Origin: Chitinophagales bacterium
GTDB taxonomy: Bacteria; Bacteroidota; Bacteroidia; Chitinophagales; JADIYW01
Assembly: GCA_023957245.1 (NCBI GenBank)
Contig: JAMLHJ010000001.1
Span: forward strand, 209,273-273,272
Length of the DNA: 64,000 nucleotides
Direction: 5' to 3'
Shown: in pieces, positions 34,476-40,354 of the stretch
How positions within the stretch are numbered: position 1 is the stretch's first letter
Layout of the letters: every line of letters starts with the position of its first letter
Notes under the pieces: model-generated
The model's input: only the letters and a program-made list of their open reading frames with translations
Told to the model about the DNA's origin: nothing
The model's database searches: none
Position numbers and translations under genes: made by a program

Positions 34476-34686
34476 ATCAAATTTTATGAAACTGAAAATA
34501 ATAATTTATTTTCTTATCTGCATTAAAGTAGAAAACTAAGTTATGTTATAGCTTGATTTTGTAGCTCATACAATGAAGGTGTTGATATAGCAATTTATAA
34601 AAATGAGTTACAAAACATTCATTGTCATGAAAAAAATAGCAACTACTATTTAAAAACAAATGTCCGAGTTGAATGTTATCAATAAT

Positions 34687-34709
34687 AACTTTTAGTTTAA
34701 ACTAAAGTT
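34687..34709. promoter_or_regulatory. Palindromic operator-like site upstream of DoxX
   Basis: The core TTAGTTTAAACTAA (34692-34705) is a perfect 14-base palindrome. It extends to AACTTT/AAAGTT arms with a single extra T, making a 23-base near-palindrome. It lies 57 bases before the DoxX start in the 291-base divergent gap. Size and symmetry suit a MarR- or PadR-type dimeric repressor. No such regulator gene is in the window. Confidence 0.5.
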
Positions 34710-34766
34710 TATAATAACCTATTAATACAAAAGAATTTAATTGATAATATTTAAAATCGTAACGTT

Positions 34767-35198
34767 ATGAGCATCATTAAATCTTTTTTATTCGGCAACT
34801 GTAAATGCAATACAGATATTGGCTTACTAATTTTCAGATTGACTTTAGGGTTTGTCTTGCTTTATGGACATGGCTTTGGAAAATTATCGGTGATAATGAG
34901 TGGACAAGAGATACAGTTTATGGATCCTATAGGAATCGGGGCAAATTTATCTTTTTATATGGCTGCTTTTGCTGAAGGAGTTTGTGCTATCTTACTAATT
35001 TTAGGTTTGTTTTCTAGATTTGCCTCTCTTGTTCTCACAATTAATTTTATTGTAATTTTTATTTTCCATGCTTTTATTGTGAAAGACGGATTTGAGGTAT
35101 TAGAATTGAGATATTTATACTTGTTGCCATTTGTCGCATTAACTTTTACTGGTGCTGGTAATATCTCTTTAGATTATTTATTCTTTAAAGAGAAATAA
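34767..35198 (+). CDS. DoxX family membrane protein
   Basis: A 143-residue protein with four transmembrane helices. The DoxX pattern is clear: IGLLIFRLTLGFVLLYGHGFGKL in helix 1 and GIGANLSFYMAAFAEGVCAILLILGLFSRFASLVL in helices 2-3. Family members are inner-membrane proteins linked in places to redox or thiol metabolism; the role here is unknown. The palindrome upstream suggests single-gene repression control. Confidence 0.88.
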   Translation: MSIIKSFLFGNCKCNTDIGLLIFRLTLGFVLLYGHGFGKLSVIMSGQEIQFMDPIGIGANLSFYMAAFAEGVCAILLILGLFSRFASLVLTINFIVIFIFHAFIVKDGFEVLELRYLYLLPFVALTFTGAGNISLDYLFFKEK

Positions 35199-35366
35199 TA
35201 GATAGATTCTTATTCGCACTACTCTCCTCTTATTTATTTGATGAATTTTCAAATTCATAGGGAGAGTATTATTCTCATTTTTTTGTACTACTTTATAAAG
35301 GGTCATTTGAATTTGAAGATAAAACCTAAAATTTTCCTAAAAATCTTTAGAGTTTTTAGTTATATA

Positions 35367-35374
35367 TATATTTG
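35367..35374 (+). promoter_or_regulatory. -7 box before the split hydrolase gene
   Basis: TATATTTG matches TAnnTTTG and lies 22 bases before the ATG at 35397. No clear TTTG was found at the -33 distance. It supports the ATG at 35397 rather than the ATG at 35238, which would place this box inside the gene. Confidence 0.45.
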
Positions 35375-35396
35375 CTCTAAAAATCTATTGTTTTAT

Positions 35397-36311
35397 ATGT
35401 TAAGATATTTGAAATATTTATTTATATTAATTGTTTTCTCCTTAGTATTGCCAAATTTAATGTCTGCTCATCAGAGTGATTCAAATATTTTACAAGCTAA
35501 TTCTCCTCAATGGCAACAATCTTCTCATCAAGTGAGTGTTTTTAGTAAAGATAACTTCAATCAAACTACTAATATTCAATGGGCTTCCAACTTGAAAGTT
35601 ACATCTTTCTTGCCATCGAACATGTCAAGCGATTTGAATAGAAGTGCATTACTTGCTTTAAGACCCACTATATTTCTATTATCAGGAGGAGCATTTAAAA
35701 ATCTAGATAACGAAACTGAATTAAATCCTGATAATCATACAATTGCTGATAGCTTAAAGTTAGCCAATAAATTAGCTAGTCTTGGCTTTAATGTCTTTTG
35801 GATTGAGTATGAAACAGCGCCACAAGATACTGCATCAATGATTGACAAGTTATTTGACGTTAAATCAGAAAATTGTTTTTACACAAATGGTAGTGAATCT
35901 AAAGCTTTATTTGAATATAGTTCTTTGGTGGCTTTTAGAGATGTGAGAGTGAAAATTAAGGATATTATTAATAATCCTGAAAATCAAATTGATACAAATA
36001 ATGTTTTCATTTCTGGCATAAGTGCAGGAGCGTTTTTGTCCATTTATTATTTGTTTTTAGACCAAGAAGAAATACCACAAAAAATTTCCTATAAAAAATG
36101 TAATAGTGAGACTGAATATTCCATCCAAGTACCAGACAAAGTGCGTTCTGATGGATTTCCCCTACCTGAAATTAAAGGTATTTTTGCTTTGGCTGGTGGT
36201 AGTTTGTATGAAAATATCTTTTTAAACAATACTGCAAAAACAAGTAAAGTAGCAATCGGATTTATGCATGGCACTTGTGATGAAGTTATCAACCAGAGAG
36301 AGGGTAGATTG
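35397..36311 (+). pseudogene. 5' part of a secreted alpha/beta hydrolase gene split by an IS element
   Basis: 305 codons, starting with a signal peptide (MLRYLKYLFILIVFSLVLPN, then LMSAHQ). The alpha/beta hydrolase features are an oxyanion region PTIFLLSGGAFKN, the nucleophile elbow VFISGISAGAFLS (Ser) and FMHGTCDEV, which supplies the acid. The frame then enters the IS element and stops after QCR at 36323. Removing the IS and one copy of the 10-base duplication joins TTG (36309-36311) directly and in frame to CCC TAT AAA at 37726, restoring a 1,120-residue protein. The insertion lies between the catalytic Asp and the expected His, so the fragment should be inactive. Confidence 0.88.
36302..36311. 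repeat. Left target-site duplication of the IS4-type element
   Basis: GGGTAGATTG directly precedes the left inverted repeat, and the identical ten bases follow the right end at 37716-37725. Confidence 0.95.
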
Positions 36312-37715
36312 CAATGTCGTTAAGTTAAGGAATTAAGCCTTGTATTGCAATGGTTTACGCTTGTATTTGTATCCTTTATTTCTTTTAAATTTCCTATCAG
36401 GTCTGACAATATCATAGCATTGATAGAGTAATTGTAGCATTTTATGTAAAACATCGGTATTATCCTGATTCCAAAATAAATCATAAGCAAATTCTTTGAG
36501 CTTCAACATTACCTGAGTTCTGTTTACTTGTTTTGTATATTTCACCTGTTTTTTATTGTCTAATTCAGGCTGTAATTCTTGTGTTTCAATCATAGCTGAG
36601 ATATTGAGCATAATGATTCTGCTGAAAAAATCCTGCTCAATAGCAATCGGTGTTTTTCCAGAAAAGAATTCTAATTGAGCAACCTGCTTAACCCTCTTAT
36701 AACACTCTTCTACTGTCCATCTCAATCTGTATAGTTCTTCGAACAGTTCTTTGGGAAACTTTTCCTTATCTGAGAGATTGGTCAGCAAGACAACATGTTG
36801 TCCATTAGCTAAAGCAATTTTCACTAAGCGAAAGCCTTGAATTTCTTCTGTTAAATACAACTCTTTGTAGCCATCTTTATATCGTTTTCCTTTAGGTAAA
36901 GCCCACATTAAATCTTCACTACTCTTCAGTAACCTGTTTGCTTCTTTCCATGCACTGCTCAGTCTGAAGCAAAACTTAAAACCTTGTTGGTGGAGTGAAT
37001 TGGCAAAACTCAGACTCGGATACCCTCTGTCAAATACAAGCAGGTCAGTTGTGGAATTCAACCGAGGTATATGAGACTTTGCCATCGTTTGTTCTCCTGT
37101 TTGCATATTGTCAATACAGGCATCTAAGACCAGTTTGTTCATTACATCATAGGCTACCGATACTCTTGCTGTAATACTTTCTGTTCCTGTATGGTTTTTA
37201 CTGACTCCAAATTGTTCTTTCAAACATTTCTCCTGAGGAAGATTGAGTGAACTACCGTCAATGGCTACTAACCGATAGCCATGCCAATGATTCTTATGGA
37301 CTGCATGCTCCTCAAAATAGCTTAAAATTTTATCCATTAGATAAGACAAAGAGGAGACATGCAGTTTCTGCCGATATTGGGTAAAAGCACTTCTAGAGTA
37401 AGTCTGAATATTTTTCTTGCTTTGAGATAGATTTTTGAACATCCTGTCCAATTCGTGTCTTACACCCACCCTCGAACATCCTAATAATAATAAAACTAAA
37501 TCCTGAACGGATAACTTCCTCCGCCGGGTAAAAGCAGACGAAGAAGTCCCTCGGGACTTCCCGATAAAATCTTCATCTGTTAGTATTTTTAATATGTTTT
37601 TAAAAAGTCCATCCAAAAAGTCAACTCCATTACTCTGCTTCCTCTGTGTGGACACATAAATATAGGCATAAATTGCTGATTAACAAATTATTATATTGTT
37701 AACTTAACGACATTG
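36312..37715. mobile_element. Complete IS4-family insertion sequence
   Basis: A 1,404-base element bounded by perfect 17-base inverted repeats: CAATGTCGTTAAGTTAA at 36312-36328 and its reverse complement at 37699-37715. It is flanked by a perfect 10-base target duplication (GGGTAGATTG). The single transposase gene fills it on the minus strand. End sequence, duplication length and the transposase YREK motif all agree with the IS4 family. The intact ends, duplication and gene indicate a recent insertion. Confidence 0.95.
36333..37655 (-). CDS. IS4-family DDE transposase
   Basis: A 440-residue transposase. The catalytic acids are D133 (LVAIDGSSLNLP), D209 (DLLVFDRGYPS) and E316 in the C1 region. 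The IS4 signature Y-(2)-R-(3)-E-(6)-K is exact: Y309, R312, E316, K323 in YRLRWTVEECYKRVK. A basic N-terminal region with SSSAFTRRRKL probably binds the ends. The gene is full length with no frameshift, so the element may still be mobile. The start lies 60 bases inside the right end. Confidence 0.95.
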   Translation of the reverse strand: MSTQRKQSNGVDFLDGLFKNILKILTDEDFIGKSRGTSSSAFTRRRKLSVQDLVLLLLGCSRVGVRHELDRMFKNLSQSKKNIQTYSRSAFTQYRQKLHVSSLSYLMDKILSYFEEHAVHKNHWHGYRLVAIDGSSLNLPQEKCLKEQFGVSKNHTGTESITARVSVAYDVMNKLVLDACIDNMQTGEQTMAKSHIPRLNSTTDLLVFDRGYPSLSFANSLHQQGFKFCFRLSSAWKEANRLLKSSEDLMWALPKGKRYKDGYKELYLTEEIQGFRLVKIALANGQHVVLLTNLSDKEKFPKELFEELYRLRWTVEECYKRVKQVAQLEFFSGKTPIAIEQDFFSRIIMLNISAMIETQELQPELDNKKQVKYTKQVNRTQVMLKLKEFAYDLFWNQDNTDVLHKMLQLLYQCYDIVRPDRKFKRNKGYKYKRKPLQYKA

Positions 37716-37725
37716 GGGTAGATTG
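37716..37725. repeat. Right target-site duplication of the IS4-type element
   Basis: GGGTAGATTG directly follows the right inverted repeat and is identical to 36302-36311. Its last three bases (TTG) restore the leucine codon at the junction. Confidence 0.95.
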
Positions 37726-40173
37726 CCCTATAAATATTTCAGCGTACTTCCATTTTCTATTGAGTATAATCAAAGTGATTTAAATAGATTTCCTTATGCT
37801 TATGGCTCCAACTATATTTTTGATAAAATAAAGAAGACACATAAAAACATAAGCTATGGTCAAGTAGTCAATGGCGGACATATTATTATTTCTCCAACAC
37901 CTATTGCAGTAGATATGACTGGAGGATGGGATCAATATACTACGAATAATTCTACTTCAATTTTAAATCAAAGAGATATTGTTTTTGATGAATTATCTTC
38001 TTTTATAAATATACAAATAGGCACCAAAAGTCAAGGTAATCATAAAGCTGTCAATTATGCTGTTTTCCCTGATAATACAACCAGCTTATGTCTAGAAGAT
38101 GACCTTCTATTGATAAAATCACCTATCCTTATCTCAGATACTTTATGTCCTAATTCTGTAGAGACTGCTATTTTAAATGATAAGTTTCCAAATTTTACTA
38201 AGTCAGTACAATGGGACGTCTCTTCCAATCTGAAAATAATAGGTTCAAGTAATGAAGATGTACTTACATTTGAAGTGGGTAGCAAGAATGCTATTGATAC
38301 AATATTTGTTACAATAGTTTTTAATAATAATGATAAGATTTCAACCTATAAAACGGTGGTGGTTGGGAAGAATAACGCTTCTTATTTGATAAGTTCAAAG
38401 GCTTTTCCTGAAAATGCTGGTCTTGTTTCCAGAGATAACACATATAAGCAATGTCAAACAGCAACAGTAAAAGCCCAACCTTCAGTAGGGTATGAATTTG
38501 CCGGCTGGAAGGAGTATAATCATATAGTGTCTGAAGATAGCATTTATCAATTTTCTGTAACCAAAGAAAGATTTTTAATTGCCAATTTTGAAGCTAAAAT
38601 TTATGAAGTTCAACTTCAAAATTCACCTACAAATGGAGGAGTAGTGAAAGGAGCAGGATCTTATGAATATGGGCAGACAGTTCAGATAAGTGCCCAAGTA
38701 AAAGGTGGATATATATTTAAGAATTGGACTGAAAATGGAATAATTGTTTCGGCAGATAGTATTTATAGCTTTATTGTTAATAGAGATAGGATTTTAATAG
38801 CAAATTATGATACAAGAAAATTTGAAGTAAATCTAACAGTCTTACCTTCAGAAGGCGGCATTCTTTTGGGTGCAGGTCTTTATGAAGCAGGTCAATCTGT
38901 AAGCATAGAAGCTCAGGTAGCAGATGGATTTAGTTTTAAAAACTGGACTGAAGATGGCAAAGTGGTATCCACCAATAAAATTTACAATTTCAAGATATCT
39001 AATGACCGAAACTTAGTAGCCAATTTTGTTGGTAAAGAGTATAAAATTGTATTGAATGCATCACCGACAGAAGGTGGTATTCTTTCAGGTGGTGGCAAGT
39101 ACTATTATGGTGATACAGTTTCTGTCCTTGCCAAGCCAAGGGTAAGATATAGCTTTAAGAATTGGACTTCAAATGGAGTAATTATATCTACAGATAGTGC
39201 TTATAGTTTTAAGGTGACTGGAGATAAAATATTGACAGCCAATTTTGTTACTAGAGAATTCAATATCAATTTATTGGCATCACCTAAAGAAGGTGGAATC
39301 TTGACAGGAGGAGGAATGTATGAAGTAGGTACTTCTGTAAATGTTTCAGCTCAAGCTTCTGAGGGTTATATCTTTAAAAATTGGACTGAAGAAGGGAAAG
39401 TGATATCTACGAATAAAGTGATGAATTTCAAAGCGACTTCTGATAGGACGCTTATTGCCAATTTCACTCCTCAAGCGTTCAATATAGACATTTCAGCATC
39501 TCCTATTGAAGGAGGAACATTATCAGGAGCTGGGAAATATAACTATAATGAATCTGCAACTGTTACTGCATACGCATCTGAAGGTTTTGAATTTAAGAAT
39601 TGGACAGTAAATGGAGTAATTGTTTCTACAGATAGTGCTTATAGTTTTAAGGTGACTGGAGATAAAACTTTGATAGCCAATTTCTCTCCTCAAGCGTTCA
39701 ATATAGACATTTCAGCATCTCCTATTGAAGGAGGAACATTATCAGGAGCTGGAAAATATAACTATAATGAATCTGCAACTGTCACCGCATACGCATCAGC
39801 CGGATTCAGCTTTTTGAACTGGACAGAAAATGGAGTAATTGTTTCGACAGATAGTATTTATCAATTTACGGTAACAGAGAATAAATCTCTAATTGCCAAT
39901 TTTAATTCTATTGCGACTCATCTTCCAGCTGAAAAAATTCAATATATTTCAATTTATCCCAATCCATTTATTGAAGAATTAATAATTGATTCAAAAGATT
40001 TCGAGATGAAGAGAATCAGTATTTATAATGTCATTGGAGAAAAAGTAATTGAGGAAGATATTTCTAATTTAAGCAAGCATATTATTAATACTACAAGTCT
40101 GAGTGCTGGTACTTATATAATTGTTATAGATGGAGAAAAAGAAAGACACATCATCGAAGGAGTAAAATTATAA
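37726..40173 (+). pseudogene. 3' part of the IS-split hydrolase: end of hydrolase domain, seven InlB-type repeats, T9SS tail
   Basis: 815 codons continuing the frame broken at 36311. The first ~55 residues complete the hydrolase fold, with QVVNGGHII giving a probable histidine. An Ig-like stretch follows (about 110-215 residues in), then seven repeats of about 73 residues with GG-(x)-GAG-Y...FKNWTENG...ANF, the divergent InlB B-repeat/Flg_new type. Last comes a T9SS sorting domain (ISIYPNPFIEELIID). A TTG at 37723 could in principle start translation, but no signal peptide would result. The intact protein would have been exported and surface-attached or released. Confidence 0.88.
38380..39915 (+). 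repeat. Seven tandem ~219-bp InlB-type repeats
   Basis: Each unit of about 73 codons has the pattern ASP-EGG-L-GAGKY...W-(x)-G-(x)-STDSxYSF...ANF. Units 6 and 7 start 219 bases apart (AATATAGACATTTCAGCATC at 39481 and 39700) and are almost identical at DNA level over more than 100 bases. Part of unit 4 also resembles unit 6. This indicates recent unequal exchange or slippage. Confidence 0.85.
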
Positions 40174-40244
40174 GATAACAATCCCCTATTGCCCTAAGAT
40201 TGTTATCATACAAAACAGCCTATTATTTGGGGTGAATAATAGGC
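40174..40244. terminator. Two tandem hairpins after the split hydrolase gene
   Basis: GATAACAATC (40174-40183) pairs with GATTGTTATC (40198-40207), beginning immediately after the TAA stop. GCCTATTATT (40218-40227) pairs with AATAATAGGC (40235-40244). Both stems are perfect ten-base pairs but lack a long T-run on either strand. They lie between convergent genes and probably end transcription or stabilise the mRNA 3' ends. Confidence 0.6.
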
Positions 40245-40354
40245 CTAACTAAACAGTATAAAACACACATTTCAAAGTGAGATCAACACTAATTTCTAAA
40301 AAATAAATTGAAATAAAAAATATTTTTTAGGAAAATTTTAACAACTATGAAATT

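Follow-up and report, generated by a model that had tools for sequence, protein, structure and literature searches.

An insertion sequence (IS) of the IS4 family lies within a gene for a predicted secreted alpha/beta hydrolase in the stretch of Chitinophagales DNA analysed here (64,000 nucleotides, referred to as the window), and would have arrived by a single cut-and-paste insertion into a functional gene, with duplication of 10 bp of the target. The shortened 5' product would keep Ser209 and Asp295 and lack His357, the repeats and the type IX secretion system (T9SS) tail, leading to a predicted loss of the enzyme. The element appears to belong to an IS4-type group in the order of its host, the members of which carry near-alike 17-bp ends on transposases that are about one-third identical, and the short elements resident in the same genome presumably owe their movement to a member of this group, which need not be the copy in the window. 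To judge from the sequence, this account as a whole, from the single insertion with its 10-bp duplication and predicted enzyme loss to the end-sharing group and the short elements, is very likely correct.

The inserted element and the gene it interrupts

The IS occupies positions 36312..37715 (1,404 bp) and is bounded by inverted repeats that are identical at 17 of 17 positions, CAATGTCGTTAAGTTAA being present at 36312..36328 on the plus strand and at 37699..37715 on the minus strand, with the first mismatch at base 18. It is flanked by two copies of GGGTAGATTG (36302..36311 and 37716..37725) that are alike at 10 of 10 bases, in keeping with the perfect ends and target duplication reported in an initial annotation of this DNA. 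As a yardstick for such flanks, the spacings of ten examined elements were slid along their whole loci, whereby at least 9 of 10 bases were alike in 35 of 80,058 placements, the true sites being among the 35. A search for further copies, which that annotation had proposed, showed that the element is present once in the 3.085-Mb assembly of 23 contigs, inside a contig of 464,583 bases. Its transposase (36333..37655, minus strand, 440 aa, GTG start) scores above the cut-off of the IS4-family model NF033592 (2.8e-54, 184.4 bits, cut-off 115) and contains an intact and complete Y-(2)-R-(3)-E-(6)-K motif, YRLRWTVEECYKRVK, from residue 309 on. In Table 1 of PMC2266710, subgroup IS4 is listed with ends of the form -AATR--------WTW, a length of 1400-1650 bp and repeats of 10-13 bp; CAATGTCGTTAAGTTAA fits this end pattern, and the 1,404 bp and the 10-bp duplication fall within these ranges. 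By its ends, length, duplication and YREK motif, the element would fit subgroup IS4 of the IS4 family, and its earlier description as IS4-type is upheld by these features and by the NF033592 match.

The interrupted gene consists of a 5' piece (35397..36311, plus strand), which encodes residues 1-305, comprising a hydrophobic leader at the N-terminus and the larger part of the catalytic domain, and a 3' piece (37726..40173, plus strand), which encodes the remaining catalytic domain, a linking unit, seven InlB B-repeats and a T9SS type A tail. When 35397-36311 and 37726-40173 are joined, a single frame of 1,120 residues with one terminal stop is obtained, as had been predicted for the empty site. 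Pfam matches support the alpha/beta hydrolase, the seven InlB-type repeats and the T9SS tail that had been read from the sequence: the 5' piece scores above the cut-off for Abhydrolase_2, the 3' piece contains Por_Secre_tail and seven stretches of InlB B-repeat, and the C-terminal sorting domain of the latter is over the cut-off for both PF18962 (5.6e-10) and TIGR04183 (2e-07). The signal peptide of the initial annotation corresponds to a hydrophobic leader recognized by eye, while of the proposed 'Ig-like unit' the stretch itself exists (about 110 residues, also found in several paralogues) and the name finds no Pfam support, the best stretch of a PKD_3 match falling within the repeats. The repeat region (window 38489-39910) comprises seven units here as compared to four in the protein of the sister genome (G001), and its fifth and sixth units, of 219 bp each, are 79% alike in DNA, a likeness that suggests duplication or conversion.

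The putative catalytic Ser, Asp and His are invariant in eight of eight aligned catalytic domains, an alignment that omits the window gene as well as L034, L037 and L039 (without a whole start). In the window gene, the invariant positions correspond to Ser209 (codon 36021-36023) and Asp295 (36279-36281) in the 5' piece and to His357 (37879-37881) in the 3' piece. Ser, within GxSxG, Asp and His occur in this order, paralogue L031 reading GISAR and not GISAG, and a Ser-Asp-His triad is predicted from this conservation. The catalytic-domain profile had no match among PDB chains at E 0.01, AlphaFold modelling of the sister domain and the two window pieces was poor (mean pLDDT 44.3), and Abhydrolase_2 reached 20.2 bits on the intact sister protein, under the cut-off of 23.

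Directly upstream of the hydrolase is a gene (34767..35198, plus strand) that, from its sequence, we take to be DoxX-like. The same arrangement exists in the sister genome, where an intact hydrolase gene (920 aa) adjoins a DoxX-like gene 91% identical to that of the window; in the other congener (G002) no hydrolase match was obtained at E 1e-3. The DoxX-like and hydrolase block of the window has on one side a 131-residue gene that adjoins metG and on the other a Sua5-like gene, whereas in the sister the same neighbours are collinear without the block, at a gap of 193 bp, and the pair sits elsewhere, behind gltD, a gene that in the window genome is followed by other genes (metG, Sua5-like and gltD being names that we presume from the sequence). 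The region of the block is window 34517-40208, the matching sister place is L067 6868-7062 and the sister block is at locus L038. A 17-bp inverted pair around the gene (35327-35343 and 40324-40340) was considered as a set of mobile ends and is not accepted as such, chance not being proved either. A counterpart of the right copy, differing at one base, is present in the sister in the same intergenic place, where no hydrolase gene lies, and the right copy occurs nowhere else at up to one mismatch in the loci searched; at two mismatches the repeat has three matches in the window, a count that 1 of 100 shuffles also attained.

The host genome contains nine hydrolase members at E <1e-20, window gene included, and 12 matches at E 1e-3. 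Three further members look broken: in L034 an in-frame TGA stands at a position that is Trp in several relatives, in L037 the frame shifts within a run of eight T, and in L032 no single frame spans the leader, which contains C5 and G5 runs. The remaining five have uninterrupted frames. The sister member L039 likewise carries a nonsense codon or frame shifts. The breaks in L032, L034, L037 and L039 could reflect decay, phase variation or sequencing error, although, as regards the last of these, the genes beside the window gene that are collinear with the sister each align to it as a single piece, one being truncated where the stretch ends. The three broken paralogues may indicate a hydrolase family in rapid turnover. 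Downstream of seven of the nine members (L030, L031, L032, L033, L034, L036 and L037) lies a gene that is lipoprotein-like by eye, separated from the hydrolase by one gene in L033, and missing downstream of the window gene and L035. It is also seen in the G001 and G005 examples (L039, L040), its product often ending in AGLKIWYE or similar, and one of ten such proteins scanned passed a Pfam cut-off, with a Fib_succ_major domain. It is possible that this gene is a functional partner of the hydrolase.

Relatives of the element and short elements with near-identical ends

Relatives of the transposase in the genomes searched are distant, at 27-36% identity. Across three overlapping genome samples, matches were found in 5 of 60 relatives at E 1e-3 and in 11 of 396 genomes of the order at E 1e-30, own genome included in both cases, and in 1 of 395 genomes of the phylum at E 1e-60, this being the own genome, which leaves no other phylum match at that threshold as an origin of the IS. 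The two congeners, G001 and G002, gave no match at E 1e-3, and viral contigs no confirmed one. Plasmids yielded 346 matching records, all below 60% identity and 26 of them covering 80% of the query; the 15 matches listed are 28.7-32.7% identical, and named matches are ISPa1635-like, at about 31% identity. Other transposases of the same Pfam family are present in the own genome, as indicated by four further DDE_Tnp_1 matches.

Among eleven relatives in the order (own genome aside), five have ends close to CAATGTCGTTTAGTTAA (L023, L069, L070, L071 and L072), L074 has a looser version, and the remaining five differ or gave none, in a scan that drew some boundaries too wide; a 10/10 duplication was found only for L073, whose ends differ. 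The transposases with similar ends are just 30-34% identical to that of the window, and shared ends alone therefore do not name a partner. Within the six elements with CAATGTCGTTTAGTTAA-like ends, the window IS is alone in having A at position 11. G047, a genome that belongs to a different family, contains an element of 1,451 bp whose ends are exact in the CAATGTCGTTWAGTTA scan and whose transposase shares 33% identity with that of the window; its one full-length copy examined (L157) shows no duplication. At L162, L164, L167 and L168 of that genome, 134-140 bp of the ends of this element are matched at 100% up to the ends of contigs, as would be expected of a multi-copy element. Short elements of 93-105 bp in G047 share these ends, and seven that were tested had duplications of 10/10 in four cases and 9/10 in one, with two failing.

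At up to three mismatches, the own genome shows no excess of matches to the IS end over those to its reversed control (29 versus 30), and the case for short elements is made by exact CAATGTCGTTWAGTTA matches, by the pairing of ends and by duplications. Exact CAATGTCGTTWAGTTA occurs seven times in the own genome, two of these being the IS itself, against none for the control; in 99 genomes scanned it was present in three, namely the own genome (7), G047 (19) and G045 (1), and the reversed control matched once in each of two other genomes. Most of the end matches at one or two mismatches in the own genome share CAATGTCGTTTAGTTAA or a near form, and many are in inverted pairs. The short elements (L102-L107, L111 and L112 in the own genome; L157-L168 in G047) measure 134 to 673 bp in the own genome. 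Nine two-ended copies there, with inverted ends and no transposase, include seven with duplications of 9-10 bp (10/10 in four, 9/9 in one and 9/10 in two); the two failures, L105 (6/10) and L107 (right end misplaced), are counted as misses, and the one-ended or cut copies L108, L109, L110, L113 and L114 are left out of the nine. Their longest stop-free stretch is 53-78 codons in four tested, and a stretch of L103 (647-860, query 98-311) recurs alone in the own genome in many of at least 51 matches (a lower bound, 40 of 80 candidates having been scored), has weaker relatives in G001 and G002, and is perhaps a separate nested repeat.

It is conceivable, if doubtful, that the window IS is itself the autonomous driver of these resident short elements. 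No other full-length element with such ends was found in the assembly, none of the four further DDE_Tnp_1 matches is near a listed end match, and the correctly placed short-element ends are alike to those of the IS at 13-16 of 17 positions, in a set where seven of nine copies show duplications of 9-10 bp. However, all 17 ends that were placed correctly in the nine copies have T and not A at position 11, as in the G047 element and three of four other close relatives, and the short elements have no similarity to the interior of the IS at E 1e-5. We regard as rather unlikely the further suggestion that, within an IS4-subgroup clade of the Chitinophagales with conserved ends, the IS is the copy that recently founded the clade's presence in this lineage, and that its transposase can act in trans on short elements left by a lost cousin; if true, an entire family of dispersed repeats would be set in motion again once a single copy had arrived. 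Movement by some member of the end-sharing group remains the reading that we prefer.

Age and consequences of the insertion

Compared with the sister gene, dS of the window gene is about 1.2-1.45, near saturation, and dN/dS is about 0.17 on the 5' side of the insertion point and 0.15 on the 3' side (about 0.16 overall), and the gene was therefore constrained before the insertion. Depending on transition bias, a stop would result from about 3.4-5% of all substitutions in the two pieces, and neutral divergence has a 95% bound of about 0.3-0.6% when 10-20% of mutations are indels and 1.7-2.6% with no indels, a bound that presumes pieces under no selection and has as its basis that no disabling change is seen in the frames. 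The insertion had been called recent, which holds only on an evolutionary scale, up to about 0.3-2.6% neutral divergence; the added proposal of an origin possibly in culture is unsupported, the intact frames setting no more than this same bound. At ordinary mutation rates, such a divergence corresponds to very many generations. A very recent laboratory or culture event is accordingly given a low probability: undamaged ends, duplication and frames, and the lack of a transposase match in either congener, would agree with it, but the data fit any age up to the bound and the sister genome is a metagenome-assembled genome (MAG). Two findings that had been named as contrary to a recent insertion, a decayed copy shared by relatives and an empty site out of frame, were not made: the transposase has no match in the two congeners, the gene is intact in one of the two, and the reconstructed empty site keeps the reading frame.

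The insertion follows residue 305, placing the break between Asp295 and His357 as had been claimed, and parts the leader, Ser209 and Asp295 from His357, the repeats and the sorting tail. The 5' piece runs three codons into the element, giving a product of at most 308 residues. The enzyme is almost certainly lost, as the earlier reading also held, a prediction made because the break lies between these two residues and separates the leader from the T9SS tail; the phenotype of this loss could be masked by other family members. That the split gene still functions, its 3' piece being read from the element or from a reinitiated frame, or the element being occasionally excised with precision, seems very improbable. 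The 3' piece retains an open frame of 816 codons and the target duplication would permit precise loss of the element, but the 3' piece is without a signal peptide by eye, the transposase reads in the opposite direction, and no TAnnTTTG-type box, which we assume to be the consensus here, is present on the plus strand of 37560-37760, one being found at 35367 before the intact start. A chimeric assembly join in place of a real insertion can be practically dismissed, since, draft of 23 contigs though the assembly is, a mis-join would not yield a 10/10 duplication together with an in-frame empty site, and there is no second IS copy in it to confuse the assembler.

Significance and relation to known systems

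The event is a routine and ordinary inactivation of a gene by an IS, and weight is added by its target, one of nine paralogous secreted hydrolases of which three others are seemingly broken. What is new here is a single-copy IS with distant relatives and companion short elements with near-identical ends. The near-alike ends, the transposases about one-third identical and the short companions in two genomes of different families form a natural test system, which would show to what extent one IS4-type transposase can act on the ends of another.

In comparison with secreted Bacteroidota enzymes of T9SS type A, the window gene has the same catalytic domain, repeats and Por_Secre_tail and a putative leader, while its catalytic family is matched just loosely by Abhydrolase_2 and BD-FAE; a literature search for the InlB B-repeat in combination with type IX secretion and a hydrolase found no paper. 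MIC231 is a short non-autonomous element with IS4-family ends, and the short elements described here are likewise short and bear IS4-family ends, as do other IS4-family non-autonomous elements. They differ from the MIC231 type in their subgroup IS4-like ends, their occurrence in Chitinophagales, their 9-10 bp duplications and their stop-free stretches of at most 78 codons (four tested). The MITEs of Porphyromonas gingivalis (PMC4596501) are likewise non-autonomous repeats in Bacteroidota, but in the available part of that paper, which names the IS4 family once elsewhere, they are not tied to an IS4-subgroup element. As regards subgroup IS4 itself, the identity of the window transposase to its plasmid (<60%) and genome (27-36%) matches is low, whereas in its ends, its length, its 10-bp duplication, its YREK motif and its one-frame transposase the element matches this subgroup as set out in the available part of De Palmenaer et al. 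2008 (PMC2266710).
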